Shown: in pieces, positions 9,169 through 42,344 of the stretch
How the letters are laid out: each line of letters opens with the position of its first letter
Numbering within the stretch: the stretch's first letter is position 1
NCBI GenBank assembly: GCA_016209225.1
Contig: JACQWO010000020.1
Location: 1 to 54,410 of the forward strand
Direction of reading: 5' to 3'
Length of the DNA stretch: 54,410 nucleotides
Origin: Desulfobacterales bacterium
Lineage (GTDB): Bacteria > Desulfobacterota > UBA8473
Program-made: the position numbers and the translations under genes
The notes under the pieces: generated by a model
Told to the model about the DNA's origin: nothing
Database searches by the model: none
Seen by the model: the letters and a program-made list of their open reading frames with translations, nothing else

Positions 9169-9189
9169 GATCTCCTCCTTTCAGAAATA

Positions 9190-17152: not shown

Positions 17153-17179
17153 AACCAATCCCCTTTCTTGAAATTTTTA

Positions 17180-17212: not shown

Positions 17213-17213
17213 T

Positions 17214-18428
17214 TTACTTTGTAACCGGCATCCTCCACCCTGTAACAGGCATAAACCTGATCTTTTCTATATCAGCTTTGTAAACCCTAACATACTTCTG
17301 GCCACGGCGGTTTTCTTTACCAAAGGTGATAGTACCACATATCCCCCCTGCATCAAAATCCTTTATCGTTTCCATAGCCTTCATAAGGGTCTCTCCGCTA
17401 AGGTCTTTTCCAGCTCTTTTCATCCCCTCCGTGAATACCATAGCAGCAACCCAACCCTGAAAATAGCCGCTATCTGTCATGATATCTAAGCTCTTATGGT
17501 AATTAAGAGTAATTTCTCTTACTTTAGCCATCCCAGGAGTATCTTCATGCCACTGGCCATAGATATTGGAAACATATCCGTTCTTTGCCCCTTTACCGGC
17601 AAGCTTTATCAAATCCTGACTGCAAACCCACTGGGTACCCAAAAAAGTAGGCTCATAACCAAACTTCCTCGCATCCCTCATCAATCCTGCTGCCGTCACA
17701 GCTATATGCTGAACAATAACATAATCAACCTTCGCCTTTTTCAAATTCAGTATCTGAGAGGTAGCATCCAATGCCCCTACATTCAGTACCTCTCTGTGCA
17801 TATCCAAATCATAAAATTTGGCTCGTTCTATTGCTCCCTGCATACCGGCCTTTCCAAACTCGATATCAGGATAGACCACCCCAAACTTAGGATTCTTCGC
17901 CTTCAGGTCTCTAATTGCATAATCCATTAAGACAGCAGCGGCATCCTCGTGGGTAGCCCCTGTACAGAAGATATATTTCTTTGGGGGAGAAGAAAGCCTC
18001 AATTCAAGACCTGCCGGAATATTGGGAATCTTTTCTTTTTCTATCTGATTGAAAAGGGCAATGTTGCCGCCACCCTGCCCTGTGCCAATAAAGGCAAGTG
18101 CCTTGTCCCTGTAAACAATCTTTTTAAAGGCTGCAACAGACAATGCTACATTTGCACGGTCATCTTCCACGATTACCTTTACCTTTCTCCCATGGATACC
18201 CCCTTGATCGTTGATGTGTTGAAAATATGTTCTAAATGACGCTATACCATACTTCCATGTGTCTGCCACTGGTCCGGTTACATCACCTATGATTGCCATC
18301 TTTATTGTATCATCGGTTACACCCCTAACATCCTCTCCATACAATCGGCTACTCAGTGACATGATCAAAATAAATGACAAAAAACCAACAACAGACAACT
18401 GATACCTGGAATTTAGTAATCGTTTCAT
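17214..18428 (-). CDS. Periplasmic ligand-binding protein, Peripla_BP_6 type (array copy 9)
   Basis: I start at the ATG at 18428 (MKRLLNSRYQ, 404 aa) since gagggga lies 6 nt upstream; the longer frame (18443) would swallow that site. The signal peptide is hydrophobic to about residue 28. The mature part opens EDVRGVTDDTIKMAIIGDVT. The ligand loop GTGQGGGNIALF is unique in the array, mixing features of the GPxS and GGTGQ forms, and is followed by PAGLELRLSSPPKKYIF. The hinge QWHEDTPG has a His, as in copy 2. It ends W-R-M-P-V-T-K. Ligand unknown. Confidence 0.9.
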   Translation of the reverse strand: MKRLLNSRYQLSVVGFLSFILIMSLSSRLYGEDVRGVTDDTIKMAIIGDVTGPVADTWKYGIASFRTYFQHINDQGGIHGRKVKVIVEDDRANVALSVAAFKKIVYRDKALAFIGTGQGGGNIALFNQIEKEKIPNIPAGLELRLSSPPKKYIFCTGATHEDAAAVLMDYAIRDLKAKNPKFGVVYPDIEFGKAGMQGAIERAKFYDLDMHREVLNVGALDATSQILNLKKAKVDYVIVQHIAVTAAGLMRDARKFGYEPTFLGTQWVCSQDLIKLAGKGAKNGYVSNIYGQWHEDTPGMAKVREITLNYHKSLDIMTDSGYFQGWVAAMVFTEGMKRAGKDLSGETLMKAMETIKDFDAGGICGTITFGKENRRGQKYVRVYKADIEKIRFMPVTGWRMPVTK

Positions 18429-18447
18429 GATCAATCCCCTCATCTTC

Positions 18448-19647
18448 TCACTCTTTTGTCTTTATCCAGTCACTAATGGGATGAAATATCCCCTTTTCCA
18501 CATCCGCCTTATAGAACTTGCAATACTCCGATGCCTGATGCTTATCAGGCCCAAAGGTCACATTGCTGCTCAGACCCTGCATGTCAAAGTCCTTCATCCC
18601 TTCCCATGCCTTTATCAGACCTTCTCTAGCAAGGTTTTTACCTGTCCTATTGAGTCCTTCATGTACAATCATGCACTCAGACCATCCCTGGATATATCCT
18701 CTTGGACGGATCTCCTTTTCCGTGCCCGGATGGTATCTCAAGGTTATTTCTCTCACTACCTTTGTCCCAGGAGTACTATCATACCAGGCTGCAAAGGAAT
18801 TGGTTGCATGAAAATTTTCCGCTGCTTTGCCTGCCAGTTCCAGCATAGTCTCTATACATGTATACTTAGTCCCTAAATAGAATGCCTTCAAACCAAATTT
18901 CTTTGCATCCTTCAAAAAGACAGCACTGCTCGAGGGAGTTAGGTGGAGGATTAAATGGGTGGGGTTGACCTTTTTTAGTCGAAGCACCTCAGAACCCGCC
19001 TCAATGGCCCCTGGGGAGAGGATAATGTCCGCCGTAAGTTCCAAACCATATTTCTTTGCCTGTTCATTTGCAGAACGGGAACCCACCTTACCATGTTCTG
19101 TATCTGGCCTTACCAATCCGATCTTTGGGTCCTTCACTTTAAGGACATTTATCAACCAGTTGAATATGATCTCGATCTCATCCTCATAAGTAGCACCATT
19201 AGTAAAATGATATGGCAGCGTCGGACGCACGAAAATCCTCGATGTACTCGTCACAAAATTGGGAATCTTTAATTTGTTAAATTGGGGTACTAAGGCAAGC
19301 ATTTGCCCTGTCCCCCCAATCTCCATAAACATAAATACCTCATCTCTGTAAACAAGCTTTTTAAATGCTGCCACATGGAGTGGAATAGTATAACGATCAT
19401 CCTCAACGATTATCTTAACCTTCCTTCCATGGATGCCTCCCTGGTCGTTTACGTTCTTAAAATATGTCCTGATAGCCTTCGGAGCCGGAGTCTGGAGATC
19501 AGCTGTAGGACCGGTCATGTCGACTATTACACCGATCTTAATGGTGTCTTTGGGGCGAGCAGGGTCTTCTTCTGCCACTGCAAAGTGAACACCTGAAAAT
19601 ACCAGAATTAAAACCAAACCAACAAATAACATCTCTCTTATTTTCAT
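18448..19647 (-). CDS. Periplasmic ligand-binding protein, Peripla_BP_6 type (array copy 10)
   Basis: A 399-residue protein. The ATG is preceded by aagggagaataaaccct. The signal peptide is cleaved near AVA (residue 25). Its mature start, EEDPARPKDTIKIGVIVDMT, lacks the R-G-V-T block found in most other copies. The ligand loop is IGGTGQMLALV, followed by SRIFVRPTLPYHF, where the usual R-R-Y-I-F is altered. The hinge is AWYDSTPG. The tail S-S-N-V-T-F-G-P-D-K-H-Q-A-S-E-Y-C resembles the relic at 22954-23058. Only 19 nt separate its stop from copy 9. Confidence 0.9.
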   Translation of the reverse strand: MKIREMLFVGLVLILVFSGVHFAVAEEDPARPKDTIKIGVIVDMTGPTADLQTPAPKAIRTYFKNVNDQGGIHGRKVKIIVEDDRYTIPLHVAAFKKLVYRDEVFMFMEIGGTGQMLALVPQFNKLKIPNFVTSTSRIFVRPTLPYHFTNGATYEDEIEIIFNWLINVLKVKDPKIGLVRPDTEHGKVGSRSANEQAKKYGLELTADIILSPGAIEAGSEVLRLKKVNPTHLILHLTPSSSAVFLKDAKKFGLKAFYLGTKYTCIETMLELAGKAAENFHATNSFAAWYDSTPGTKVVREITLRYHPGTEKEIRPRGYIQGWSECMIVHEGLNRTGKNLAREGLIKAWEGMKDFDMQGLSSNVTFGPDKHQASEYCKFYKADVEKGIFHPISDWIKTKE

Positions 19648-19767
19648 AGGGTTTATTCTCCCTTGATAAAAAAATTAGCCGTTGTACCAGCATTAAATAA
19701 ACCAGCTCTCAATTCCTTATTCAAATTATCGCTTATTGCTTACCTTTTTGGAGACTCATCATCTGTC

Positions 19768-20982
19768 TTATTTTGATGGCTTCATCCAGTCCGTTATTGC
19801 TATCAGTCGTTTGTTTTGCACGTCGGCCTTGTATAGCTTCACATATTCTCCACCTGTCCTCATGCCAGGCCCAAGGGTTATAGGTCCGGTTAAACCATCC
19901 GTTTTAAAATCCTTAAAACTCTCGTAAGCCCTTATCAGACCTTCTCTGTTTAAATCCTTACCTGCCCGCTTCAGGGCCTCGACCAATACGACACTATGTG
20001 TCCAACCCTGAACGAACCAACTAGGTTGTTCATTTTTCTTAGGATTGTATTTAGAATTTATCTCCTTCATCTTTGTTATACCAGGAACATTCTCATACCA
20101 TCTGCTGAAGGAATTGACGATATGAAAGTTCTTTGAGCCATCCCCTGTCAATCTCACGAGATCTTCGGCACCGGCATATTTTGTTCCTAAATACATGGGG
20201 TCGTATCCGATTTTCATAGCACTCCTGACGAATGCAGTCGCATTCCCGGTAGTTGTGTGGAGCAATACGTAATCACAGCTGGCCATCTTCAAGATGAGTG
20301 CCTCTGATGTAGCATCTATGGCACCAGGAGAAACTATAACCTCTCCCACCAGCTTGGTGTGGCGCAATTCAGCCTGTTGGCTGGCTGTCCGGGAACCAAC
20401 CTTTCCATGCTCTGTATCAGCCCTAACCAAGCCTATCTTTGGATTCTTTGCCTTTTTAACATCATATATGTAGTCGAACAGTATCTTTATTTCATCTTCG
20501 TAACTCGTTCCGTGTGTGAAGTAATATTTCCTGGGAGGGATAACTAGAATGTCCGAAGTAGGTGGTCCCAGTACAGGAACTTGCTCTTTGGCTATCATAG
20601 GCTGTAATGCCAATAGTCCCCCGGTCGACCCTCCAAGAAACATAGTAAATACTTGATTTCTATAAATCAGTTTCTTGAATGCAGAAATCATCAGGGAAAC
20701 CGTATACCGATCATCTTCATGGACCCATTTAAGCTTCCTCCCGTGAATACCTCCCTGGTCATTCACATATCTAAAATAGGTTTTGACACCGTCAGCGAGG
20801 GGGCCTTGAATTTCGACTGTTGGTCCTGTCTGGTCAAGTATCATACCAACCATTATAGTATCTTCGGTTACACCAGGGACATTCGCCGCTTCCCCCGGTG
20901 TAACAGTAAAAAGAGCAACAATTGACATAACAAAGAAAACAAATAAAGGTATTAAGAACACATAGGATGATCTTTTTTTCAT
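19768..20982 (-). CDS. Periplasmic ligand-binding protein, Peripla_BP_6 type (array copy 11)
   Basis: A 404-residue protein. The ATG follows aaaaaaaggaggaattcc, one of the strongest ribosome sites in the array. The signal peptide is cleaved near GEAA (residue 33). The mature part starts NVPGVTEDTIMVGMILDQT. It has WVHEDDRYTV where other copies have I-V-E-D-D-R-Y-S-I. The ligand loop LGGSTGGLLAL is again different, and the hinge is RWYENVPG. The region KNPKKNEQPSWFVQGW type (shifted by indels) is specific to it. Like copy 10 it has K-V-G-S-R-T/S-A after E-H-G, so the two are probably sisters. A 120-nt gap follows. Confidence 0.9.
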   Translation of the reverse strand: MKKRSSYVFLIPLFVFFVMSIVALFTVTPGEAANVPGVTEDTIMVGMILDQTGPTVEIQGPLADGVKTYFRYVNDQGGIHGRKLKWVHEDDRYTVSLMISAFKKLIYRNQVFTMFLGGSTGGLLALQPMIAKEQVPVLGPPTSDILVIPPRKYYFTHGTSYEDEIKILFDYIYDVKKAKNPKIGLVRADTEHGKVGSRTASQQAELRHTKLVGEVIVSPGAIDATSEALILKMASCDYVLLHTTTGNATAFVRSAMKIGYDPMYLGTKYAGAEDLVRLTGDGSKNFHIVNSFSRWYENVPGITKMKEINSKYNPKKNEQPSWFVQGWTHSVVLVEALKRAGKDLNREGLIRAYESFKDFKTDGLTGPITLGPGMRTGGEYVKLYKADVQNKRLIAITDWMKPSK

Positions 20983-21031
20983 GGAATTCCTCCTTTTTTT
21001 TATGTTTTTTTATTACTCATGCTGAATAAGT

Positions 21032-22237
21032 CTACTTTCTCTCTAAAGGCTTAAGCCATCCAGTAATAGGAACAAAAATAGCTTTATCTAAATCTGTCTT
21101 ATAGAATTGGGAGAACTGGTTAGGTTTGTGCTGGGTTGGGCTATAAGTGATAAGACCACAAAGGCCTTTTGTATCAAAATCCTTCAAACTCTCTAACGCA
21201 TCTACAAGATTATCTCCATTCAAATCCTTGCCTGCCCTTTTTATAGCTTCACCAAGGATTAAAGATGTAACCCAGCCCTGGGTATAGAACTTGGTCTGTA
21301 TCTTTGTGTCAGGCTGATATTTCAAGGTTATCTCTCTCATATTCGTAACCCCTGGTGTATCATCGTACCATGAGTTGAATGAATGTACCCCAATGAACTT
21401 TTCTGCTGCCTTTCCGGCTACCTTTATCAAATCCTCTCCACAGGTATAATAATCGCCTATAAAGGTGGGTTTATAGTCAAATTTCCTTGCATCCCTGAGT
21501 AGAATTATTGCCTGTCCAACACCGCTGTGGGCAATAACATAATCTGCCTTTGCCCTTTTCAGAGAGAGAACCTGTGAAGTGGCTTCAAGTATATTCAAAC
21601 CAACGATCTCCTCGGCTACCATCTCTATATTATAAAACTTTGCCCTCTCCCTTGCAGCCCTTAAGCCTGTCTTTCCGTGCTCTGTATCCGGATAAGTAAA
21701 GGCTATTCTGGGGTTTTTAACATTTAGTATCTTAATTATATAGTCAAATATACATTCCACCTCATCATCATAGCTGGCCGCCGGTATAAAGACATGTCTC
21801 CTCACCGGATTGACCAGACTCTCTGCCAGACTGACAGTTATAACCGGAACCCTCTCCTTTTTTATCTGGGAGGCAAGTGCCATTGTCTGCCCCGTCCCCC
21901 CTCCATACAATATTGAGAGTACCCCATCTCTAAAGACGAGTTTCTTGAAACCGGCTATGGCACCAGGGATGGTATAATGGTCATCCTCAATGATAAGCTT
22001 TATCTTCCTGCCATTGATACCACCCTGTTCGTTTATATGCCGGATATAGTTTCGAGTTGCCTGTACTAAGGGAATTGTCATGTTTGTAACAGGCCCCGTC
22101 ATGTCTATTATTACACCGACTTTAATAATATCTTTCGTGACTCCGCTGTCTTTTTCAGCAGATACTCCCGTAACCAATAAAAGAACCAGAGCCAAAGTTA
22201 AAATCGCACTAAACCCCCAATAACCTTTTCTAACCAT
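21032..22237 (-). CDS. Periplasmic ligand-binding protein, Peripla_BP_6 type (array copy 12)
   Basis: A 401-residue protein. The ATG follows caggaggtttgaatt. The signal peptide is cleaved near GVSA (residue 27). The mature start is EKDSGVTKDIIKVGVIIDMT. The ligand loop is GGGTGQTMALA, the hinge SWYDDTPG, and the tail G-L-C-G-L-I-T-Y-S-P-T-Q-H-K. It belongs to the GGTGQ group with copies 5 and 6. It is the first intact gene of the array in transcription order; the truncated copy at 22328 lies just upstream. It ends W-L-K-P-L-E-R-K. Confidence 0.9.
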   Translation of the reverse strand: MVRKGYWGFSAILTLALVLLLVTGVSAEKDSGVTKDIIKVGVIIDMTGPVTNMTIPLVQATRNYIRHINEQGGINGRKIKLIIEDDHYTIPGAIAGFKKLVFRDGVLSILYGGGTGQTMALASQIKKERVPVITVSLAESLVNPVRRHVFIPAASYDDEVECIFDYIIKILNVKNPRIAFTYPDTEHGKTGLRAARERAKFYNIEMVAEEIVGLNILEATSQVLSLKRAKADYVIAHSGVGQAIILLRDARKFDYKPTFIGDYYTCGEDLIKVAGKAAEKFIGVHSFNSWYDDTPGVTNMREITLKYQPDTKIQTKFYTQGWVTSLILGEAIKRAGKDLNGDNLVDALESLKDFDTKGLCGLITYSPTQHKPNQFSQFYKTDLDKAIFVPITGWLKPLERK

Positions 22238-27786: not shown

Positions 27787-28986
27787 CTATTTCTCCAATT
27801 TTATCCAATCCGATATGGGTGTTAATAACCCTTCTTTGACATTAGCCTTATACATCTTTACATATCTAGACCCCTTATGGTCATCAGGTCCAAAGGTGAC
27901 AGAGCCACATAGTCCTCTCATATTAAAATCTTTGATTGACTCCAATGCATCAACCAACGCTTCACCATCAATGTCCTTTCCTGCCCTTTTTATCCCTTCT
28001 GCAAGGATTGTAGCATCGCCCCAACCCTGAGTATATGCCTTTGGTCTGTATGGTTTCTCTGTCCCAGGATGGTATTTTAAAGTCGCTTTTCTCATCTCCT
28101 CCAAGGCAGAGCCTTTATCATACCATGAACTGTAAATCGCTGTACCTATGTAATTGGAAGCTGCCTTTCCTGCAACCTTAACGGTATCCTCAGTACATGT
28201 ATACTGGGTGCCCAAAAAAGGGATGTCCGTTATACCCATCTGCATTGCAGATTTCATTATTACAATCGAATTGTCAACCAGAAGATGTAATACAATGAAG
28301 TCCGGGTTCCTTCTTTTAATATTCAGCGCCTGGGAAGTGGCATCCAATACCCCTGGGTTTACGATCTCAATACTGACAATATCTATGCCGTATTTGTCTT
28401 TGTACTTCTCTGCCGCCTTAAAACCGAGCTTGCCATGCTCGGTATCATTATACACAAAGGCTATTCTGGGATTTTTCTTCTTCAGATCACTCACTATATA
28501 CTGAAATATAAGTTGAATTTGATCCTCATAGGTCGGTCCACTGGCAAACATATAACGCTTAGGTGGTATCACCACCCTGTCGGATGAAGGAGGAATAACA
28601 CAGGGCATCTTGTCTTTAAGGATAGCTGAAGTGAGCGCAAAGATACCAGCACTGGATGCCGGACCAAGTAAGGCAAGTACCTGATCCTTTAATAAGAGCT
28701 TCTTATATGCAGATATAGTCGCAGGGATCGAATATCTGTCATCCTCAATGATTAACTTGATTTTCCTTCCATTGATTCCGCCGTTTTCGTTTACCCATTG
28801 AAAGTAGTTTTTAAACGCCTTAGAAGCAGGAACAGTCACAGGGGTCGCCGGACCTGTCTGGTCATATATAACCCCCATCCTGATCTCGGAATCCGTAACA
28901 CCTCTCACCTCTTTACTAAACCCATAATCACATATCAAAAACACAGAAATAGCCACCATAAGTAAAACTATACTAACTTTCTTCAT
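27787..28986 (-). CDS. Periplasmic ligand-binding protein, Peripla_BP_6 type (copy 13, separate from array)
   Basis: A 399-residue protein. The ATG follows agggaggatattcagg. The signal peptide is cleaved near GFS (residue 24). The Cys in F-L-I-C-D-Y lacks a good lipobox, so I treat it as soluble. The mature part opens KEVRGVTDSEIRMGVIYDQT. The ligand loop is GPASSAGIFAL and the hinge SWYDKGSA. It is nearest the GPxSxG subgroup. It heads the minus-strand run and stands upstream of the 2-oxoacid oxidoreductase, whereas the other twelve copies lie downstream of the ADP-forming synthetase. It may therefore be the founding, metabolically coupled copy (inference). Confidence 0.9.
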   Translation of the reverse strand: MKKVSIVLLMVAISVFLICDYGFSKEVRGVTDSEIRMGVIYDQTGPATPVTVPASKAFKNYFQWVNENGGINGRKIKLIIEDDRYSIPATISAYKKLLLKDQVLALLGPASSAGIFALTSAILKDKMPCVIPPSSDRVVIPPKRYMFASGPTYEDQIQLIFQYIVSDLKKKNPRIAFVYNDTEHGKLGFKAAEKYKDKYGIDIVSIEIVNPGVLDATSQALNIKRRNPDFIVLHLLVDNSIVIMKSAMQMGITDIPFLGTQYTCTEDTVKVAGKAASNYIGTAIYSSWYDKGSALEEMRKATLKYHPGTEKPYRPKAYTQGWGDATILAEGIKRAGKDIDGEALVDALESIKDFNMRGLCGSVTFGPDDHKGSRYVKMYKANVKEGLLTPISDWIKLEK

Positions 28987-31462: not shown

Positions 31463-31768
31463 TTAATCCTTATGCCATGGAAGCCTGGCCTCTGGATTGC
31501 TCCAGAAAATGGATAGGTATACAGAGATCACAATTGCTCCCAGCCAGAAAGCCACTATCTGGGAAGGTTCCCATGTGTCCGTTTTGGATAAGTGCATTAT
31601 CACCTCTCCAACAGCAAAGTTGATCAATCCCCAGATCACATTGGTCAAAGGACGTGACTTGCGGGCGAAGGGAGTCATGTGAGTCTTGCCACAGATCCCT
31701 TGAATGAAATGGGGAATCCCATTGAAATAAAAAATAGCTGCAAAGAAAAAACCTATTAACCTGATCAT
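31463..31768 (-). CDS. Small integral membrane protein of unknown function
   Basis: A 101-residue protein with three likely membrane helices: residues 3-22 (LIGFFFAAIFYFNGIPHFIQ), 45-60 (IWGLINFAVGEVIMHL) and 70-88 (IVAFWLGAIVISVYLSIFW). The first helix contains N-G-I-P-H-F, a pattern I recall from small DUF-type membrane proteins with a His near the bilayer surface. ATG follows gaaaggaggaaaggatt. It stands before the nitronate-monooxygenase-like gene in opposite order of transcription flow, i.e. downstream of it. Function unknown. Confidence 0.65.
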   Translation of the reverse strand: MIRLIGFFFAAIFYFNGIPHFIQGICGKTHMTPFARKSRPLTNVIWGLINFAVGEVIMHLSKTDTWEPSQIVAFWLGAIVISVYLSIFWSNPEARLPWHKD

Positions 31769-31806
31769 AATCCTTTCCTCCTTTCTAGAAAACCCTTAAC
31801 TACTAT

Positions 31807-32775
31807 CTAACCCCTTATCCCACCGAAAACCCCGCTTTTTAGAATCTCTTCAGCGCCATTAATAATGCTGTCTATGAGTTCCTTCACAGTTAATATCTTA
31901 TCTATTCCGCTTACAGCCAGAGAGCCAGGAGCAAGTTTTAGTACTTCATCACTTTCAAACGACGTATCAGCATCAGGGTCTTCCTTCAATAAAACCCTCT
32001 CCAGCTTCATCATCCACTCACCATGGGGAATTTTTCCTCTAAGTTTCATAACCTTTTCCATGTCCAGAGGGTTAGGTGGGGCCAAAATCTTTTTCATAAG
32101 CTTAGGGTCAGACGGATCAACATCCACAAGATATTGCTTATGATGTTCTGTTATGGGACATTCTTTAGTGGCCATAAAGGCTGTTCCCATATATGCTGCC
32201 TCTGCCCCCATTGCCAAAGAAGCCAGAAATCCCCGAGCATCTCCAATACCGCCGGCTGCAATTACCGGTATCTTTATCTGTTTAACTGCCCATGTTATAC
32301 TGGTAAGTGTAGGAAGTTGGTCCACACTCTTAAATCCGACCCCCTCCATGCCAACAATAACAACTGCATCAGCCCCCTGTTTCTCAGCTACTATTGCATG
32401 CTTAACAGTAGCTACCTTGTGAATCCACTTAACCCCGGCCTCCTTCAGTCGCTTTCCATGATCAGTGGCTTGAAATGCTGAGGTTTCAACGACAGGGATG
32501 CCCTCCTCAATGGCAACTTCCCGCATCTCATCGATATGCGGACACATCCCCACAGTAAGATTCACACAGATAGGCTTATTAGTCATGGATCTGGCTTTTC
32601 GTATATCTTCCCTGAGCCTTTCCGGGGTTTTCAAAGCCCCTGCAGTAATAATACCCAACCCCCCTGCCTCGGAGACAGGCGCCGCAATCGCTGAAGTGCC
32701 GAATCCTCCGTATGACCCTTGAATAATAGGATACTTTATACCCAGCATCTCTGTAACTCTAGTCTTCCATTCCAT
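31807..32775 (-). CDS. FMN-dependent nitronate monooxygenase / FabK-like oxidoreductase
   Basis: A 322-residue TIM barrel of the 2-nitropropane dioxygenase (NMO/FabK) family. Typical segments: MLGIKYPIIQGSYGGFGTSA at the start, then NKPICVNLTVG, KQGADAVVIVGMEGVGF, and the FMN phosphate site IPVIAAGGIGDARGFLASLA followed by GAEAAYMGTAFMATKECP. NMO and FabK cannot be split safely on motifs. The end (DSIINGAEEILKSGVFGGIRG) is normal. ATG follows aggggaggtgaaac. The short distance (12 nt) to the bactofilin gene upstream suggests co-transcription with the cell-wall genes, though a functional link is unclear. Confidence 0.87.
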   Translation of the reverse strand: MEWKTRVTEMLGIKYPIIQGSYGGFGTSAIAAPVSEAGGLGIITAGALKTPERLREDIRKARSMTNKPICVNLTVGMCPHIDEMREVAIEEGIPVVETSAFQATDHGKRLKEAGVKWIHKVATVKHAIVAEKQGADAVVIVGMEGVGFKSVDQLPTLTSITWAVKQIKIPVIAAGGIGDARGFLASLAMGAEAAYMGTAFMATKECPITEHHKQYLVDVDPSDPKLMKKILAPPNPLDMEKVMKLRGKIPHGEWMMKLERVLLKEDPDADTSFESDEVLKLAPGSLAVSGIDKILTVKELIDSIINGAEEILKSGVFGGIRG

Positions 32776-32787
32776 GTTTCACCTCCC

Positions 32788-33183
32788 CTAAGACACCTTT
32801 TCCTTTGCCTGCAGTTCAACCACGTTTGATTCTTCTCTGAACATTGAAGAACGGCCGTTAAACATTGCGCCTTCTGCAATGCTGAGTTTGCTTGTCGTAA
32901 TCTCCCCTGTAACCTGTCCTTTTGCCTTAATCTCTATAATTTCTCTGGCGTTCAGATTGCCGTCAACCCTGCCTCCGACAATAATGCCTCTTGAGACGGT
33001 ATCGCCTTTAAGATGCGCTGTTTCTCCAAGTATGAGCCAGTTAGCTTCAATATTGCCTTCAACTGTGCCGTCAACCCGCAGTGTTCCCTGTGTTTTTATG
33101 TCACCTTTGAAATGACAGTTGCTGCCGATAAATGATCCGAGCTTTTCTGTGTTTTTTGAAAACATTGAACCAATTGAACCCAT
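32788..33183 (-). CDS. Bactofilin (polymer-forming cytoskeletal protein)
   Basis: A 131-residue protein with the bactofilin beta-helix: SFIGSNCHFKGDIKTQGTLR, then VDGTVEGNIEANWLILGETA and GGRVDGNLNAREIIEIKAKG, repeating G-x-I/V turns. Short flexible tails flank it. Bactofilins self-assemble into filaments at the membrane without nucleotide and position peptidoglycan enzymes; CcmA of Helicobacter is one. Here the gene directly follows an M23 endopeptidase (15 nt), as ccmA does in the csd1-ccmA-csd2 locus, which supports a role in cell shape. The start ATG follows gggaggaattaagaa. Confidence 0.92.
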   Translation of the reverse strand: MGSIGSMFSKNTEKLGSFIGSNCHFKGDIKTQGTLRVDGTVEGNIEANWLILGETAHLKGDTVSRGIIVGGRVDGNLNAREIIEIKAKGQVTGEITTSKLSIAEGAMFNGRSSMFREESNVVELQAKEKVS

Positions 33184-33198
33184 TTCTTAATTCCTCCC

Positions 33199-34023
33199 TT
33201 AGATAAAAGGTTTCAGATTAACAGGACTGCCGTTTTTCCATACTTCGTAATGAAGATGGGGACCCGTTACATCTCCTGTCGAGCCGACATAGGACACGAC
33301 ATCTCCTCTTTTTACCCTCTGGCCTATCTTAACCGCATTCATCTTGTTATGGGCATAAACCGTTGAAAATCCAAAACCGTGCTCAACAACTACAACGTTG
33401 CCGCTACCGCCGTGCCATCCGGCAAAACTCACTATGCCGTCAGCAGTGACTGTAACAGGATTGCCCGGAGAGGCGCTTATATCTATTCCGTTGTGAAAAT
33501 CTTTTTCACCGGTTACAGGATGCTTCCTTTTGCCATAGGGTGAAGTTACATTCCCTATGAGAGGCCAGCCTTTGGGTGTTGCCATGTAAAGGTCTCTTCG
33601 CTGGCTCAGGTAATCTTTTATCTCACCAACGTCTTCAACCGTATTTTTTATCTGCTGCTTCAGAGCTTCCATGTCAATTACGCCGCTGTCTGATGTATCC
33701 ACGTTTTCAAGAACCTTTTCTTTGGATTTCAGAGAAAAGAGTTTTTTGAACTCAGCTTCCGCTTTTTTAAGCGCTGACATTGTTGTCTTCATTTCCAGAA
33801 ACTCGTCGGAATAATACTGAACCTTCTCCTGCATCCTGTAATATTCAAGCGTGTCAATAGCTATTGAGAAGACATAACCGGTTCCAATGAGCCAGAGGAG
33901 CACTGAAATGAATATGCCTATAGAAGGTATCTTGAGACTGAACGGTTTTCTGCTGCTGTGAGGTATTACCATTATAGTTATCGGAGTAAATGCTTTTTTA
34001 AGCAGAAATCTCATTCTAAGCAT
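33199..34023 (-). CDS. Membrane-anchored M23 (LytM) peptidoglycan endopeptidase
   Basis: I start at the ATG at 34023 (MLRMRFLLKK, 274 aa); the longer TTG frame at 34050 contains the ribosome site aaaggaggt inside its codons. One membrane helix (about 32-55), then a coiled coil (about 60-105), then the LytM domain. It has the zinc ligands H177 and D181 (FHNGID) and the H-x-H motif HLH (256-258) in TGPHLHYEVW, all intact, so it should be an active enzyme cutting peptide cross-bridges. The layout equals Csd1/Csd2-type and other M23 shape enzymes paired with bactofilin. The adjacent bactofilin is the likely partner. Confidence 0.92.
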   Translation of the reverse strand: MLRMRFLLKKAFTPITIMVIPHSSRKPFSLKIPSIGIFISVLLWLIGTGYVFSIAIDTLEYYRMQEKVQYYSDEFLEMKTTMSALKKAEAEFKKLFSLKSKEKVLENVDTSDSGVIDMEALKQQIKNTVEDVGEIKDYLSQRRDLYMATPKGWPLIGNVTSPYGKRKHPVTGEKDFHNGIDISASPGNPVTVTADGIVSFAGWHGGSGNVVVVEHGFGFSTVYAHNKMNAVKIGQRVKRGDVVSYVGSTGDVTGPHLHYEVWKNGSPVNLKPFI

Positions 34024-34086
34024 ATCTTCCGCCCTGACCTCCTTTCTCAATATTGCCTCTTACAAAAGAATCAACCCCCGTCTCGA

Positions 34087-35889
34087 TTATCCTATCTCAA
34101 CGATGACCTTACCTATAAGCAGTCCCTCCCTGGTTACCAAAATCTCATATTGCTTCCCTTTTTTGTCAAGGGAATACTTTTTTTGCAGACTTCCATCTAA
34201 TCTTATAATACGCTTTCTGTCCTCTCCATCATCCCCATGTATATATCCCCTAAAATTTACCTTGACTCCCAAGTTATCGGCGATATTGGTACGAAGATCG
34301 GTTATTTCTATGTAATCATTATACAACGCCCTTATAACTTTACCGTTATCGTAGCACACCCCTTCTTTCCCATTGTGTTTTACCACCAGATAATACAGCT
34401 CAGGTTCCATCAAATCTATAAAAATTTGGCCCATATTTTTACCTTTATTCGATACTACTATTTGATACTGATTGCCTTTTCCGTCTGTAGAGTATTTTTT
34501 CCAAACGTCCCTTGCTGTATTTATTATGTATCCACGGTCATTTCCACTGTTATTGCTTTTATTACCAACAAAGCCAAGAAAATTAACAGTAGCATTCTTG
34601 AACTCTGAAGGATTAGTTATCACATCGATAATCTTTATCTTATCTCCTTTAACAACTTGAACTCGCTCATTATTGTAAAAAACCCTTTTAATACCATTAA
34701 GATCCAGCACAAAATATTCCACTTTTGGAATTACATCTACACTCTTTAGAAAAAGATGATCTCCCTTCTGGGAAGCCAGCGATACCTGAATTTCACCACA
34801 TTTATAATTATCTTTTCTTACAATAATGGAGGTTGGCTCATCAACCACAAACTTTTTTCTATAGTCATTTTTTGTGCCCATCTTTGAAATATCTACAGAG
34901 AGCCCCCTTTCGTAGTTTGCTTCGATATGAGATATCTCAATACTATCTCCCTTCTGCAAGGTTAATCTCTTTTGATTGAAGACTACCAAAGGAAGAGAGT
35001 TGTTTATAGAGAGAACAAGGTATTTCAAGAGGGGTGGATCCAGGTATATCCTCGGATTTTCCGGTATTATGTCAAACTCTTTCATAAAGGCATTGATTAC
35101 CATCGTTTGAAACTTAATCCTCAGTTTAACAGAGGGAATGTTTTTGGATGTTTCAATCCCGAACGCAGGGATTTCATGATCAGTTAATGAGTAGTATGTT
35201 GCCGACTTACGCTGCTCTGTATGGGGGGTATCAGGTGAACTGGTCCTGTGATTATTAAAATGAAAATGAAAATCGGGGTTATCTATGTGTTCGTTAACTT
35301 TGCTTGCTACCTTTCTTGCGAGATCACCTAAATAAAGGGTTTTTTTGTTCCGCTTTGAATAGAATACATCCGCATCAGCTATTATGGATTGACCATAGCG
35401 CAAGGGATTTCTAATGTCACTCTCCCACTTGGTGGAATAGAACCCTGAACCATCATGGAGATTTAAGAGATAGTCAGATTCTGCTATTAATCTCTTCAGT
35501 ACGAAAACAATCTTACTATCATAGTCTTTTATGGAAGAGTCGGTGAATTTTCTGTTCATATCACCACTTGGACCACGTTGATTTAAGAGGATAGAGTAAA
35601 AATTGGCCCTGGGCACAACAATCAGATTACCACTTTCCAGAGACATGTCTGCATAAAGATCTGCAGCTAGATACCCTCCTGGTTCATCCCCTTGAATTCC
35701 GCCGATTATTAAGAGGGTTTTACCAGGCTTATTGCCATAAATCCTATATACATTTAACTCGTATTGGGTGTTAGGTAAATATATTTCGTGTTTAGTAGCT
35801 GCTATGCTTCTCTTGGGAAGGATCAACAGTAAGGAAAACAAGAAGGGTATCAAGATTTTTTTGAGGTGAACGTTATATTGTCGACTCAC
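34087..35889 (-). CDS. M99-type D,L-carboxypeptidase (Csd4-like)
   Basis: A 600-residue exported enzyme (signal peptide about 1-30; GTG start after ggtggataaaca). The catalytic domain has GGIQGDEPGGYLAADLYAD, with zinc ligands Q66 and E69, and LLNLHDGSGFY with H145. A Gln in place of the usual His is the mark of Helicobacter Csd4, which trims tripeptide to dipeptide in peptidoglycan; NQRGPSGDMNRKF is also typical. The C-terminal part (about 280-600) has three similar beta-sandwich repeats, each with a W/Y-K-K...G-K-Q-Y-x-I-x-V pattern. That is more than the Csd4 C-terminal region that I recall. It is probably a shape-determining carboxypeptidase in the periplasm. Confidence 0.85.
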   Translation of the reverse strand: MSRQYNVHLKKILIPFLFSLLLILPKRSIAATKHEIYLPNTQYELNVYRIYGNKPGKTLLIIGGIQGDEPGGYLAADLYADMSLESGNLIVVPRANFYSILLNQRGPSGDMNRKFTDSSIKDYDSKIVFVLKRLIAESDYLLNLHDGSGFYSTKWESDIRNPLRYGQSIIADADVFYSKRNKKTLYLGDLARKVASKVNEHIDNPDFHFHFNNHRTSSPDTPHTEQRKSATYYSLTDHEIPAFGIETSKNIPSVKLRIKFQTMVINAFMKEFDIIPENPRIYLDPPLLKYLVLSINNSLPLVVFNQKRLTLQKGDSIEISHIEANYERGLSVDISKMGTKNDYRKKFVVDEPTSIIVRKDNYKCGEIQVSLASQKGDHLFLKSVDVIPKVEYFVLDLNGIKRVFYNNERVQVVKGDKIKIIDVITNPSEFKNATVNFLGFVGNKSNNSGNDRGYIINTARDVWKKYSTDGKGNQYQIVVSNKGKNMGQIFIDLMEPELYYLVVKHNGKEGVCYDNGKVIRALYNDYIEITDLRTNIADNLGVKVNFRGYIHGDDGEDRKRIIRLDGSLQKKYSLDKKGKQYEILVTREGLLIGKVIVEIG

Positions 35890-35997
35890 TGTTTATCCAC
35901 CTGTAACGTCTCGGAAGTTCTACAACCCCCATTATTCCACCATTCCATTTATTAATAATATTCCAATTACGGAGCTAAGGGGAGCCAAGTTCTCCTA

Positions 35998-36687
35998 TTA
36001 TGTCTTTATTTTAAAGGATTTATTCAGCAAAATATCCCCCTCAATTGAATAAACAAAGATTACAATTTCTTTAAACTCTGCCCCTCCTTTTGGCCTTTTA
36101 ATACGTCCTTTTAAGGGTTTTGAATGCTTTATTGCAAAGAACTGTCCCTTTCTGTAGTCCACGGGAACCCCGTTTTTAACTTCAACCATGGAAGATGCCC
36201 CGTAGACGGGAGAGTTAATATCTTCATTTTGCGCTATCATTGCTATGTATCCGGAAACCAGTCTATTGTCTTCAGTGTTGTTATATACTGTAAAGGTAAA
36301 ATTAATAATATCCGGCTCTGATTCAGCCGTCACCACCTTAAAATCTCCTATACTGATTTCCGAGGATAAGAGTGTCGCTATCTTGGATTTTTCTGGACTA
36401 CCTGGACCATCTGAAACAGGGGCACTCCTGGGATTATAGACCGGTTTAACCCCTTTTATTTCAATAGAATTTTGGTTTCTAATATCCAACTCTAACCTTT
36501 GAATCTCTTTGACCAATAAAGCCCTCTCCCGGTACAAGGAAAAGTACCCATAGGTAAAATATATAGAGGCTAATATTGAACATGCAAGCAATATAAGGAG
36601 ATAAATAAACCTATCGGTTTTTATTTCAAATGACCATATCTTACCCACGTGCCTCATAAAGATAATGGTTAAAGAGTCTTTTTTCAT
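35998..36687 (-). CDS. Single-pass membrane protein of unknown function in the cell-shape cluster
   Basis: I do not recognise this 229-residue protein. A short basic N-terminus, one membrane helix (about 27-47: FIYLLILLACSILASIYFTY), a short coiled coil (YRERALLVKEIQRLELDIRN), a Pro/Ser-rich linker (PRSAPVSDGPGSPEKSK), then an all-beta domain (about 110-229). The beta domain has an immunoglobulin-like pattern: INFTFTVYNNTEDNRLVSGY...EFKEIVIFVYSIEGDILLNK. The topology suits a membrane-anchored periplasmic scaffold. It sits 18 nt downstream of the L,D-transpeptidase gene and 108 nt upstream of the carboxypeptidase, so a role in organising these enzymes is the natural guess. Confidence 0.6.
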   Translation of the reverse strand: MKKDSLTIIFMRHVGKIWSFEIKTDRFIYLLILLACSILASIYFTYGYFSLYRERALLVKEIQRLELDIRNQNSIEIKGVKPVYNPRSAPVSDGPGSPEKSKIATLLSSEISIGDFKVVTAESEPDIINFTFTVYNNTEDNRLVSGYIAMIAQNEDINSPVYGASSMVEVKNGVPVDYRKGQFFAIKHSKPLKGRIKRPKGGAEFKEIVIFVYSIEGDILLNKSFKIKT

Positions 36688-36705
36688 CTTTATCTCGCTG
36701 GAAGC

Positions 36706-38115
36706 TTATTTTTGAGTGCTATCGTTATCAAAATCTGACTTCCAATCCTCACCGACAATTTCCCAGTTGTCCCCTTTCTTCTCTAAATACAATCTCTTTA
36801 TCCCCGAATCGTCATAGCTGTCTGAACGATAGTCCTGCTGAAAAGCTGCAATTACCTTATTCTCTTGTTTAAGTATTTTAATATCACCTATCTTTATATT
36901 AATAGTACGTACCTTTTTATTGAGGGCCTTTTTATAATCTCTCCATGACTGCCAGCCCATACCCTTAGCATTGAACCCTTTAGAATAACAAGACATATAC
37001 CTGTCTAACTCTTTGTTTTCCCAGTATGCCTTCCATTTAGAAATAAAAGAACGGATTGATTGTTCTTCCAACTCCAAAGTGGGTTTAATTAAAGGCTTCT
37101 CTTTTGGCTTTAGGATATTTTTCACCAAACGGGCTCTATACTTTCTCAAAGAAGGGGGCAACGAACTCCATGTCTCGCCTATGATCTCCCAACCATTTTT
37201 CCCTTTTTCTAAATACAATCTCTTCAATCCAAAACTATCAAAGCTACCTGAATGGTAACCCTGAAGAAAAAGTGCAACAACGCTATCCTTTTGTCTAAAT
37301 ATTCTCAAGTTCTCCAATGTTATATTGATTGTTTTGTATATTCTGTTAAGAGACCTCTTTTTGGCTCTCCACGACTGCCAGTCCATGTTCTCTGAGCGAA
37401 ACCTCTTAGAATAACTCGCCATATAGTTGTCTAATTCCTTGTTTTCCCAGTAGCTTAACCATTTAGAAATAAAATCCTGAATCTCTCTATTCTCCTGTAG
37501 GAGGGAATCTTTATGTCGGTAATCTATTTTTTCTTTGATAATTATCGGTGTGCTATGGGGTTCAATATATCTTGAGAGGTAAAGCACATCCTCATTTCCC
37601 AGGGCTATACATCCATTTGTATCAGTAGGTATCAACTCCTTATTTGTACCGTGAAGCCATATCCCATTACCACCCTTATTCCTTCTTTTATCCAAGTAAT
37701 TAGGGTAATCCAGCACGAAGGCCTTCACTCCATATTTGGGTGGCAGCTCCCTGCCCTCAATGATCTCAGTAACAAAATAGACCCCTTCTGGGGTTTTAAA
37801 ATCCCCTTTTCTTTCTTTGTCGCCGCTGTTTTCCCCGGTAGAGGAATTAAATATCTTTGACAACATATATCCATGGTTGCCGTATGAGTATAAATAGAGC
37901 TTTTGTTTCGACTTGTCAACGAGAATAGCGTAAGATTTGTCTCCATCTCCCATGTTAATCAATGAGCTTGGGATTCTGTCTGTTATGGAACCTTTTGTCG
38001 ATATACTATCGGGGGTAAATCGTTGAATTGCATGGGAAAGATTGGTTAATAAGGTTAATGGAATTAAAAGGAATGGTATGCTTATAAGGCCAGGTAATTT
38101 CCTTCTAACATTCAC
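36706..38115 (-). CDS. Csd6-like L,D-transpeptidase/carboxypeptidase with two NTF2-like repeats
   Basis: A 469-residue exported protein (GTG start after aaggagacgtttatt; signal peptide about 1-29). The YkuD domain (about 60-195) has the catalytic H155-G-T and C169 in TDTNGCIALG, so the active site is complete. It is followed by two homologous NTF2-like domains (about 209-317 and 350-462), each with W-x-x-Y-W-E-N-K-E-L-D, S-K-x-F/F, M-x-W-Q-S-W-R and K-R-L-Y-L-E-K near the end. Helicobacter Csd6 has one such domain after its YkuD fold and acts as an L,D-carboxypeptidase. This protein has two. It heads the cell-wall run. Confidence 0.87.
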   Translation of the reverse strand: MNVRRKLPGLISIPFLLIPLTLLTNLSHAIQRFTPDSISTKGSITDRIPSSLINMGDGDKSYAILVDKSKQKLYLYSYGNHGYMLSKIFNSSTGENSGDKERKGDFKTPEGVYFVTEIIEGRELPPKYGVKAFVLDYPNYLDKRRNKGGNGIWLHGTNKELIPTDTNGCIALGNEDVLYLSRYIEPHSTPIIIKEKIDYRHKDSLLQENREIQDFISKWLSYWENKELDNYMASYSKRFRSENMDWQSWRAKKRSLNRIYKTINITLENLRIFRQKDSVVALFLQGYHSGSFDSFGLKRLYLEKGKNGWEIIGETWSSLPPSLRKYRARLVKNILKPKEKPLIKPTLELEEQSIRSFISKWKAYWENKELDRYMSCYSKGFNAKGMGWQSWRDYKKALNKKVRTINIKIGDIKILKQENKVIAAFQQDYRSDSYDDSGIKRLYLEKKGDNWEIVGEDWKSDFDNDSTQK

Positions 38116-38214
38116 AATAAACGTCTCCTTGTACCTTTTTTTATTTGACCTGGTCCCGCTTCATTGTGAAATTGGAATGGTGGAATGGTGGGATCCTGGG
38201 GACATCTTGATTCA

Positions 38215-38769
38215 TCAATCTTGGAGAAAGTCTGCTTTTGTGAATACAGCCTCCAGTTGATATCCCTCTTTTGCCAAATTTTCTCTCCCTCCCTCTTGCC
38301 TATCGACCAACGTCAGAACTTTAACTACCTCATAACCCTCTTCCTCAGCTCTATAAATGGCCTTTAGGGTTGACCCCGCCGTTGTCACCACATCATCTAC
38401 TATTGCAACCTTAGCTCCCTTTCTCAGACCTTTTACCCCTTCAATCCATAGCGACGTGCCGTGTTTTTTCGGTTCTTTTCTGACGATAAATGCCTGGATG
38501 GGATTCCCTTCAGTATAACTAACCAGAGATATGGCCGTAACAATAGGATCTGCGCCCAAACTCAACCCCCCTACCCCATCTATAGGAACCTTGGACATTC
38601 GGATTATATCATAAAACATCTTGCCCACCAAATACGAGCCTTCAGCACTAAGGGTTGTCTGTTTCCCATCAATATACATATCACTTTCTCTCCCGGAAGC
38701 TAAGACAAACTTTCCCCTTTCGTATGACTTTTCCTTTAGTATTTTTAATAGCCTGCTTTTATAATCCAT
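38215..38769 (-). CDS. pyrE: Orotate phosphoribosyltransferase
   Basis: A 184-residue enzyme that joins orotate to PRPP, giving OMP in pyrimidine synthesis. It opens SRLLKILKEKSYERGKFVLA and has the substrate segment SGRESDMYIDGKQTTL. Catalytic Lys/His residues lie in FIVRKEPKKHGTS, and the PRPP loop is VAIVDDVVTTAGSTLKAI. Its length is normal. It follows purF by 8 nt and so closes the purine run, showing joint expression of purine and pyrimidine steps. Confidence 0.93.
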   Translation of the reverse strand: MDYKSRLLKILKEKSYERGKFVLASGRESDMYIDGKQTTLSAEGSYLVGKMFYDIIRMSKVPIDGVGGLSLGADPIVTAISLVSYTEGNPIQAFIVRKEPKKHGTSLWIEGVKGLRKGAKVAIVDDVVTTAGSTLKAIYRAEEEGYEVVKVLTLVDRQEGGRENLAKEGYQLEAVFTKADFLQD

Positions 38770-38777
38770 ATCTCTAA

Positions 38778-40187
38778 CTATATAACTATCTCTCTCTCGA
38801 ACAGAGTCAGTTGCCTGGAGTCCAGATCAACAGGGGGTTCTATGGGGTATTCTCCGGTAAAACATGCATCGCAAAAATCACCTCCGCCATTTTTAACCGA
38901 TCCTCTAAGTCCTTCAATACTCAAATACTCAAGGGAATCAGAAGTTATAAACCGGTTGATTTCAGAAACAGTGTGAAGAGAAGCAATAAGCTCTGTTTTT
39001 GCGGGGGTGTCAATGCCATAAAAGCATGGATGGGCAGTAGGAGGAGAGCTTATTCGAACATGGATTTCTCTGGCTCCTGCGTTTCGTATCATATTTATTA
39101 TCTTGTGAGAAGTAGTCCCCCTTACGATAGAATCATCAATGACTATTACCCGCTTTCCCTTCAAAAAGTCCTTTATAGGGTTAAGCTTAATCTTTGCGCC
39201 AAAATGCCTTATGGACTGCTGAGGCTCAATAAATGTCCTTCCCACATAGTGGTTTCTTATGAGTCCCATCTCAAAAGGTATAGAAGACTCTTCAGCATAA
39301 CCAATAGCGGCAGGAATCCCCGAATCTGGCACAGGTATTACAATATCCGCCTCAACTGGGTTCTCCCTAGCCAGTTGCCTACCCATTTCTTTTCTAACAC
39401 CATAGACGTTTCTTCCAAATATATTGCTGTCAGGACGTGAAAAGTAGACTAATTCAAATATACAGAACTTGTTCAAAGGGCTGAATGGTTTATAGGAAGT
39501 GATGCCGTGATCATCTATAAGTATAATTTCTCCTGGTTCAATCTCACGTACGTATTCGGCCTCTATTAAATCTAAGGCACAGGTCTCAGATGATACTATA
39601 TAAGCGCCCTTAAGCCTTCCCAAAACCAGAGGGTGAAAGCCATGAGGATCACGGACAGCAACCATCTCTCTTTCCGTAAGAAATAGCAAAGAATATGCCC
39701 CTTTTATCCTTGAAAGGGCATCAATTATACGCTCAACCAGTGAGCTTCCCCGGGAGGTTGCCATAAGATGCACTACTATCTCTGTATCCATTGTAGATTG
39801 AAAGATTGAGCCCCACTCCTCTAGTTCATGCCTCATTAGTCCTGCATTCAACAAATTCCCATTGTGGGCAACCGCTATACCCCCTTGAGAATAACTCACC
39901 ACAAAGGGTTGCGCGTTTTTTAATAAACTTGAACCGGCCGTTGAATAGCGCACATGACCTATAGCGCTATAACCGGTTAACTTATTTAAGATATCTTCGT
40001 TGAATATATCCGCAACCAGCCCCATCTGGCGATGGGAACGCAGTATTCTGCCATCAGATGATACAATGCCGGCGCTTTCTTGCCCCCGGTGCTGCAGGGC
40101 ATATAATCCCAGATACGTCAGATTGGCGGCTTCAGGATGTCCAAATACTCCAAAGACACCACATTCTTCTCTAAATTTATCAAACAT
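38778..40187 (-). CDS. purF: Amidophosphoribosyltransferase (Fe-S type)
   Basis: A 469-residue enzyme that makes phosphoribosylamine from PRPP and glutamine, the first step of purine synthesis. The N-terminal [14 protein letters not shown] shows the glutaminase Cys at residue 9, so an 8-residue propeptide must be removed, as in Bacillus-type PurF. The PRPP loop is [17 protein letters not shown]. Cys residues for a 4Fe-4S cluster are present ([24 protein letters not shown]), so this is the oxygen-sensitive Fe-S form. It lies between purL and pyrE. Confidence 0.95.
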
Positions 40188-40209
40188 TATGGGTTTCCTG
40201 ATCCCTTCC

Positions 40210-42344
40210 TCAAACCCTCTCTTTAATGGCCATTTTCCACCTTTGTTTAAGAACCTCCACAGGACAATTAATAAGCTCGTTTATTACCAATCTCTCTCCA
40301 CCAACCCTTCCAATAATTTTAAAAGGGGCTTTATTTTTTTCTGCAATCTCCTTAAAATGATCCAAATTACCCTTATCCAATGAGACTATAATCCGAGATT
40401 GAGATTCTCCAAAAAGAAGGCAGTCTCCTCGTATATTTTCACTAATAGTTACCTTTGCGCCACGATTAAATTTAGGGCCCGAGAAACAACATTCTGCCAG
40501 CGCAATGGCAATACCACCTTCGGAACAATCATGGGCTGATTTTATTATTCCTTTCTGGATAACCTCCAAACAGGCATTCTGAACAGCAATCTCTAAATCC
40601 AGCTCAATCCCTGGAGGCATCCCCTCTTCGATGCCATGGACAACTGCCAGGTATTCACTGCCTCCCAGCTCTTCATAACTTTTCCCCAGCATTACTATCA
40701 CATCCCCATCGTCTTTAAACCACTGGGTTTGATGGAGGTTAATGTCGGGAATAATACCAACCATAGCCACTGTAGGTGTAGGGTAGATACCCTCTCCCTG
40801 GGTCTCATTGTAAAAACTGACATTTCCCCCTACCACAGGAGTGTTCAGTCTTTTACAGGCATCACTAATCCCGTTAGTAGCCTGCTCAAACTGCCACATT
40901 ATCCCAGGCTTTTCCGGGTTGCCAAAATTAAGGCAATCGGTTATAGCCAGGGGCTTTGCCCCGGAGCAGACCAGATTCCTTGCTGCCTCGGCAACGGCTA
41001 TCATTCCTCCTATGTAAGGATCAAGATAACAGTATCGGCTATTACAATCAACCGTCATTGCAATGCCTTTATTTGTCCCCTTTATCCTTATAACAGCCGC
41101 ATCAGAACCAGGGTAAACCACAGTATTGGTTCGCACCATATGGTCATATTGCCTGTAAACCCACCCCTTGCCGGCAATATTAGGAGACCCCAATAATTTA
41201 AGGAAAATTTCCGCATATTCTGTTGGTTCAGGAAGGTTATCTATAGAAAATCTTTGGGTCATGGAAAGGTATTCAGGTCTTTCTTTGGGCCGCAAATAGA
41301 CTGGGGATTCCTCGGACAAAGCCCTGGCCGGTATTTCAGCTACCATCACACCATCATTCATCACCCTAAGTAAACCATCATCTGTAACACTACCCACCAC
41401 GGATACATCTAAATCCCATTTCTTAAATACTTCCTCTACCTCTTTTTCATAACCCTTCTTCACAACTAGAAGCATTCTCTCCTGAGATTCTGACAACATC
41501 AGCTCGTAAGGAGTCATTCCCACTTCCCGTCTCGGCACTTTGGAAAGATCTATCTCAATCCCCGTCCCGCCTCTACTTGCCATTTCACAGGATGAACATG
41601 TCAGTCCTGCTGCACCCATATCTTGAATACCAACTATACAATCTCTGCTCATTACCTCGAGGCAGGCTTCCAGTAAGAGCTTCTCTGTAAAAGGGTCACC
41701 AACCTGAACTGTGGGACGTCTCTCTCCCGACTTTTCATCGAATTCTTCTGAAGCCATAGTTGCGCCATGAATACCATCTCTCCCTGTCTTAGAGCCAACG
41801 TAGATGACAGGATTCCCTGCCCCACAGGCAACCCCTTTGAATATCCTCTCCTTTTTAACCAATCCCAGACTAAAGACATTGACCAATATATTTCCATTGT
41901 AGCATTTATTAAAATAAGTCTCGCCTCCAACCGTAGGCACACCAATACAGTTGCCGTAGCCTGCTATACCCCCTACCACCCCATTGAGCAAATACCTGGT
42001 TTTAGGGTGATCGAAAGAGCCAAAACGTAAAGAATTCAGGGAAGCTATAGGCCTTGCTCCCATGGTAAAAATATCACGTAAAATACCTCCCCGATATCAA
42101 CTACACCTGCATTCTCTCCCGGACCTTGAATGATATGTTCTCCGCCGGTGGGGAAGTTCTTAAGAAAAACCCTTGAACTCTTATAACTGCAATGCTCACT
42201 CCACATTACTGAAAATATACCTAATTCTGTGTAGTTAGGCTCCCTTCCTAGAATCTGCTTTATCTTTTTATATTCTTCGTCTGTCAATCCGTGTTCTCTG
42301 ATTAGTCCTTCAGTAATTTCAGGCTCTTTAAAATTATCCATCAT
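40210..42344 (-). pseudogene. purL: Phosphoribosylformylglycinamidine synthase PurL, broken by an internal deletion and frameshift
   Basis: Two overlapping frames together form a small-type PurL. The N-terminal piece (42045-42344, 99 aa) carries [18 protein letters not shown] and [12 protein letters not shown]. The C-terminal piece (40210-42063, 617 aa from an internal ATG) continues with [16 protein letters not shown] and all later motifs, e.g. [13 protein letters not shown]-like [13 protein letters not shown] and [13 protein letters not shown]. Reading the second frame upstream of its ATG gives GGILRDIF, the normal sequence. About 28 residues between D-I-G and G-G-I-L are missing, including the conserved ESHNHPS, and the frame shifts. 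PurL uses ATP and glutamine-derived ammonia (via PurQ/PurS) to make FGAM. As read, the gene cannot make a working enzyme. An assembly or sequencing error is possible because purQ and purS are intact. Confidence 0.88.
42085..42093 (-). other. Deletion junction in purL
   Basis: In frame 1 the codons run D-I-G-E (atc ggg gag); in frame 2 they run G-G-I-L (gga ggt att tta). Both share the bases cggggaggt, where the two reading frames meet. In other bacteria roughly 28 codons lie between these points. The short G-rich overlap suggests joining at microhomology (two G-rich glycine codon runs), either in the cell or during assembly. Confidence 0.7.

Follow-up and report, generated by a model that had tools for sequence, protein, structure and literature searches.

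A bactofilin-associated gene cluster for predicted stem-peptide trimming, with a candidate cytoskeletal adaptor, in a Desulfobacterales bacterium

Composition of the cluster and its predicted enzymes

The DNA analysed here (the window) is the 54,410-nucleotide stretch of contig JACQWO010000020.1 of a Desulfobacterales bacterium (assembly GCA_016209225.1), and this work deals with a cluster of five genes located at positions 32788-38115 of the window, all on the minus strand. In the order of transcription they encode a YkuD/NTF2 protein (36706-38115), a bitopic protein of 229 amino acids named here TMx (35998-36687), an M99 zinc carboxypeptidase (34087-35889), an M23 peptidase (33199-34050) and a bactofilin (32788-33183); the gaps between them are 18, 108, 36 and 15 base pairs (bp), respectively. 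TMx belongs to no Pfam or NCBIfam family. The other four proteins had been named, at this place and on one strand, in a previous sequence-only reading of the window, and the family profile matches confirmed them. They had also been described as contiguous; the cluster is indeed co-directional but the four genes are not strictly contiguous, since the overlooked TMx gene sits between those of M99 and YkuD.

In the first gene product a YkuD domain (PF03734, 67 bits) is followed by two tandem Csd6-type NTF2 domains (PF24125, 132 bits in two stretches). The catalytic residues H155 and C169 are invariant, two NTF2 domains were found in 98 of 125 family members, and the Csd6 C-terminal NTF2 domain was present in all 25 members scanned. 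Among solved structures the closest relative is Bdellovibrio Bd1075 (PDB 7o21, E 6e-48), followed by Csd6 and Pgp2. Thus the Csd6-like character suggested previously holds for the NTF2 domain and for the catalytic His and Cys, while the nearest relative is Bd1075. The match to the DpaA model was weak (32.7 bits) and far under the 365-bit cut-off. The protein is predicted to be a secreted LD-carboxypeptidase, which would convert tetrapeptides to tripeptides.

The M99 protein, the only one found in this genome, was recognised by PF17033 with 120.3 bits, well above the curated cut-off of 27. Its proposed zinc ligands, Q66, E69 and H145, align with the Csd4 motifs GIQGDE and LHDG and are invariant in alignment A1 (24 relatives), and Gln occupies the ligand position in 124 of 128 relatives, so both the assignment to M99 and the unusual Gln-Glu-His site of the sequence-only reading are sound. 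Its equivalence with Csd4, however, was contradicted by the family tree, in which H. pylori Csd4 falls into a 16-row clade (100/100) together with other Desulfobacterota proteins, a subfamily never met in the cluster, and the window M99 belongs to another clade. Both subfamilies are present in two genomes belonging to one family (L052 and L083 in G210, L053 and L081 in G293); in each of them one M99 is Csd4-like and unlinked, and the other is part of a YkuD-TMx operon. By this phylogeny the window M99 represents a sister subfamily of Csd4 and not a Csd4 ortholog. M99 enzymes of the Csd4 kind convert the tripeptide product to dipeptide. Because of its family membership and the conserved site, the window M99 is predicted to be a DL-carboxypeptidase catalysing the same step. 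Since the product of the YkuD/NTF2 enzyme would be the substrate of M99, the cluster would encode two consecutive trimming steps.

The M23 protein (PF01551, 116 bits) is a predicted membrane-anchored DD-endopeptidase, in which a hydrophobic N-terminal segment precedes the M23 domain (residues 185-278) and the HxxxD and HxH zinc residues are conserved. The bactofilin gene follows 15 bp downstream, and a bitopic M23 peptidase next to a bactofilin is the arrangement of the LmdC type. Judged by these features the window M23 is LmdC-like, instead of the Csd1/2 equivalent that had been assumed. The bactofilin (PF04519, 93.9 bits against a cut-off of 27.9) is again the only one found in the genome; its best solved relative is Bactofilin A (2n3d) and its N-terminal sequence MGSIGSMFSKNTEK is similar to MFSKQAKS, the peptide that targets Caulobacter BacA to the membrane.

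Conservation of the cluster in Desulfobacterota and Nitrospirota

Surveys were carried out on 395 Desulfobacterota genomes, 198 Nitrospirota genomes and 80 named relatives. Profiles derived from the window proteins were used to read the gene neighbourhoods, and a gene was counted as a neighbour if it was on the same strand within 4.5 kb. The 46 sampled loci with enough flank comprise the window M99 subfamily and minor divergent branches, and 16 Csd4-like loci were used for comparison. The 57 named loci with enough flank were chosen by their similarity to the window and are hence biased.

M99 was detected in 72 of the 395 Desulfobacterota genomes. In the phylum sample its neighbours were YkuD/NTF2 (40 of 46 loci), TMx (33), bactofilin (15), pyrE (12) and M23 (2), and YkuD/NTF2 and TMx were both beside it in 33 loci, whereas none of the 16 Csd4-like M99 loci had any of these five genes nearby. 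The co-occurrence in relatives on which the sequence-only reading depended was therefore found, for YkuD/NTF2 as well as for bactofilin. Among the named loci the corresponding values were 50 of 57 for YkuD/NTF2, 48 for TMx, 35 for bactofilin, 5 for M23 and 2 for pyrE. The median gaps were -25.5 bp between YkuD/NTF2 and TMx, -1 bp between TMx and M99 and +5 bp between M99 and bactofilin; the open reading frames were taken from the first possible start, and the overlaps are therefore somewhat overstated. The conserved core is thus the tightly packed triad YkuD/NTF2-TMx-M99, and since it recurs across many families, this clustering is not due to chance.

The bactofilin gene can lie at either end of the triad, and this association is seen in unrelated families as well as in Nitrospirota. 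Within the Desulfobacterota sample the M23 gene is co-directional with the cluster only in the genus of the window. In Nitrospirota M99 exceeded the cut-off in 9 of the 198 genomes; four genomes have the order M23-bactofilin-bactofilin-TMx-M99, and in Candidatus Magnetocorallium the order is M23-bactofilin-bactofilin-YkuD-TMx-M99, so that the combination of all five functions extends to a second phylum. An earlier description of the cluster or of TMx, or a report connecting bactofilin with M99, was not found in a literature search in which most subscription papers were outside reach.

The cluster is flanked upstream by pyrE (38215-38769), which precedes the module in several other families too, and downstream by a nitronate monooxygenase/FabK-like gene (31807-32775), both on the minus strand. 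In a complete genome of the same genus (G004) the nitronate monooxygenase gene directly follows pyrE on one contig at a distance of about 107 bp; the whole 5.4 kb cluster is absent, and neither M99 nor TMx nor a close M23 relative was detected when this genome was searched. Another genome, G003, has kept YkuD, TMx, M23 and bactofilin and has lost nearly all of M99; its YkuD gene is interrupted, with an assembly gap, and the interruption is possibly an artefact. Because the M99 tree holds most of the family codes together and pyrE lies upstream of the module in several families, the distribution fits mainly vertical descent with losses. The ancestral operon proposed earlier is plausible for the core within Desulfobacterota; as a description of the whole cluster it is weakened by the patchy occurrence and by the absence in G004.

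TMx, a candidate adaptor protein

TMx is the most informative part of the cluster and looks like a candidate for the missing adaptor between the skeleton and the enzymes. Its AlphaFold model (predicted local distance difference test score, pLDDT, 84) begins with two strands, at residues 5-11 and 17-23, which are followed by a helix spanning 24-73; a linker modelled with low confidence then leads to a beta-sandwich at about 109-229. These elements correspond to a predicted cytoplasmic beta-hairpin, a transmembrane and coiled-coil helix, a linker and an immunoglobulin-like (Ig-like) domain. The beta-sandwich matches Ig-like accessory domains with Z values of about 11 and root-mean-square deviations of 2.0-2.5 Å over 95-102 residues; comparison of this domain with known structures returned no enzyme, and the matches were accessory domains of a generic Ig-like kind, from glycoside hydrolases and similar proteins. 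A sequence search of the PDB with the TMx profile gave weak matches only, mostly to helical membrane or coiled-coil proteins, and the search of PHROGs a single weak match, to the membrane helix of TMx.

In the phylum-wide profile search many weak matches were confined to the first 118 or so positions of TMx. Of 27 such N-terminal matches examined, 25 were M23 peptidases, several of them encoded beside bactofilin; the remaining two were a coiled-coil protein and a YkuD protein anchored at its N-terminus. When TMx was aligned by hhalign with M23 proteins chosen by the TMx profile, E was 4e-13 over 88 columns, and with six independently chosen M23 proteins it was 9e-4 in the same register, at a probability of only 22%. 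The family profiles revealed no match of TMx to the M23 catalytic domain, and the likeness to LmdC is limited to the N-terminal half. In LmdC the conserved N-terminal cytoplasmic hairpin recruits the enzyme to bactofilin, and mutation of the hairpin abolishes the localisation (PMC10945521). Because of the profile homology to the M23 N-termini and of what is known of the LmdC hairpin, TMx is read as a protein in which a putative LmdC-type N-terminus is combined with an Ig-like domain instead of the peptidase.

Five genomes have TMx beside bactofilin with neither M99 nor YkuD/NTF2 nearby (L209-L211, L231, L233), and in some lineages (L051, L110, L116-L119) the Ig-like domain of TMx is fused onto the YkuD/NTF2 enzyme. 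Both arrangements, the pairing with bactofilin alone and the fusion to YkuD, point to contacts of TMx with the filament as well as with the enzyme. We suggest tentatively, as an idea that may well fail, that TMx founds a widespread and undescribed family of cytoskeletal adaptors, in which an LmdC-type N-terminus devoid of the peptidase docks stem-peptide trimmers on bactofilin filaments.

Some further observations concern TMx. The five TMx-bactofilin pairs leave room for a role wider than stem trimming. The YkuD/NTF2-type protein L249:1729-3075 carries a membrane anchor and a coiled coil of its own at the N-terminus and matches the TMx profile; it is possibly a natural fusion of anchor and enzyme. 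In the family with code f40 (L204-L208, L232) pyrE is followed by a gene for a long YkuD protein (577-825 amino acids) and by a TMx-like gene, and a Csd4-like M99 is encoded elsewhere in the same genomes. The adaptor thus pairs with YkuD even without an M99 of the operon type.

Proposed function and comparison with known systems

We favour, with moderate confidence, the interpretation that the cluster encodes a bactofilin-docked module for two-step stem-peptide trimming, by an LD- and then a DL-carboxypeptidase, which sets cell curvature. The YkuD/NTF2 enzyme would trim peptidoglycan tetrapeptides to tripeptides and M99 would next trim these to dipeptides, in the same sequence as in the case of Csd6/Csd4 and Pgp2/Pgp1. 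TMx, as an LmdC-derived non-catalytic adaptor, would dock on the bactofilin filaments through its cytoplasmic hairpin, and its periplasmic Ig-like domain would hold or position both secreted trimmers on one common side of the cell. A hairpin of the same type would let the LmdC-like M23 dock on the same filament, where it would cut the cross-links. If trimming and cutting proceed asymmetrically along the filament, a curved (vibrioid) cell may result. For the curved cell shape, which the sequence-only reading had also anticipated, there is one cultured example: Desulfocarbo indianensis SCBM (L149) carries YkuD-TMx-M99-bactofilin and was reported as vibrio-shaped, polarly flagellated and motile (PMC4559730).

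A number of observations weigh against this model. D. indianensis is the only carrier with a documented shape. The M23 gene joins the cluster in few lineages and is outside the core, and about two thirds of the sampled loci have no bactofilin within 4.5 kb, so that docking there would require a bactofilin encoded elsewhere. The N-terminal motif of the window M23 aligns in register with TMx, but at an hhalign probability of 22% the match between TMx and window-type M23 proteins is weak; a structure model of this M23, built from six sequences, is poor (pLDDT 41). In Bd1075 and Pgp2, targeting or wall binding is the task of the NTF2 domain of the enzyme itself, which may make a separate adaptor superfluous.

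The lack of M23 in most Desulfobacterota loci and of nearby bactofilin in two thirds of them would also be understandable if two independent neighbours had met in the window, namely the known bactofilin-LmdC pair and a YkuD/NTF2-TMx-M99 trimming unit unrelated to bactofilin. This seems unlikely to us, considering that bactofilin joins the triad from either side, in unrelated families and in a second phylum, that TMx is paired with bactofilin alone in five genomes and bears an LmdC-type N-terminus, and that all five genes are jointly absent in G004. The characterised relatives of both trimmers are shape determinants, and this, together with the association with bactofilin, the cytoskeleton-docking motif and a patchy presence that suits an optional shape trait better than housekeeping, makes it similarly doubtful that the enzymes merely serve general peptidoglycan turnover or recycling (stem trimming in growth) with no specific role in curvature. 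Such a role would be in line with the housekeeping pyrE/purF context, with relatives which do without the gene set and have no obvious replacement, and with the fact that the shape effect of trimming enzymes is not obligatory. On the basis of its fold and of the weak DpaA match, the YkuD protein could also be an LD-transpeptidase or a DpaA-like amidase acting on lipoprotein-wall links, and the cluster would then control envelope attachment rather than shape. We consider this very improbable: the Csd6 C-terminal NTF2 domain was found in every member scanned, the best structures are those of the LD-carboxypeptidases Bd1075, Csd6 and Pgp2, and the partner M99 would consume the tripeptide product.

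In the surroundings of the cluster (31500-40300) 21 promoter-like sites were counted against 21.0 expected from shuffled sequences, and no promoter is claimed; terminator-like sites numbered 16 against a shuffled expectation of 7.2, many of them inside genes. Farther away, twelve tandem genes for proteins of about 400 amino acids, all Peripla_BP_6 periplasmic binding proteins, occupy 6670-22237 on the minus strand, an unusually large local set of substrate-binding proteins. Another protein of similar size (399 amino acids) is encoded at 27787-28986.

Among the known systems, the BacA-LmdC module of Hyphomonas neptunium and Rhodospirillum rubrum (PMC10945521) resembles the window in the adjacent bactofilin and bitopic M23 genes and in the hairpin preceding the transmembrane helix; in R. 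rubrum this pair tunes cell curvature (PMC10945521). The window cluster differs in having an LmdC-type N-terminus on the non-peptidase TMx as well, and in the two stem-trimming carboxypeptidases linked to TMx, which have not been described for that module. Bd1075 of Bdellovibrio bacteriovorus, the nearest solved structure to the window YkuD/NTF2 protein, is an LD-carboxypeptidase giving vibrioid cells; its loss straightens the cell, and it is brought to the convex face by its NTF2 domain (PMC8938487). Curvature driven by an LD-carboxypeptidase outside Campylobacterota is therefore already known. Unlike the window gene, that of Bd1075 is monocistronic and its product has one NTF2 domain, and the accessible parts of the report describe no bactofilin or M99 partner (PMC8938487). 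The authors of that report note that there is no known mechanism by which a protein could be directed to a single side wall (PMC8938487).

The Helicobacter pylori proteins Csd1/2-CcmA and Csd4-Csd6, with Campylobacter Pgp1/Pgp2, share with the window a bactofilin, an M23 peptidase, DL- and LD-carboxypeptidases and the Gln-Glu-His zinc site of M99. The separate M99 subfamily, the YkuD protein usually with two NTF2 domains, the LmdC-like M23, TMx and the single gene cluster set the window apart. A transplanted Csd4-Csd6 system was considered as well, and it was ruled out by the M99 tree and the Bd1075 match of YkuD. The cluster is a module related to that of Helicobacter, with its own M99 subfamily, a Bd1075-like YkuD and a candidate cytoskeletal adaptor, and not the Helicobacter system moved. 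The trimmers of the window belong to enzyme types that make the cells of Helicobacter, Campylobacter and Bdellovibrio bend, and here they would be coupled to a bactofilin cytoskeleton. Since the cluster packs both enzyme types together with a bactofilin and with a bitopic protein that carries the putative bactofilin-binding motif, it offers a concrete candidate answer to the question of one-sided wall targeting, in a large environmental group that includes a cultured vibrio-shaped species. In Helicobacter the bactofilin/M23 functions and the Csd4 trimming appear as two separate genetic networks, and reports of the scaffold candidate Csd5 are limited to H. pylori and H. acinonychis; if the proposed role of TMx is true, this adaptor would link the cytoskeleton directly to trimming of the Csd4/Csd6 type, and thereby join the networks which Helicobacter genetics keeps apart.

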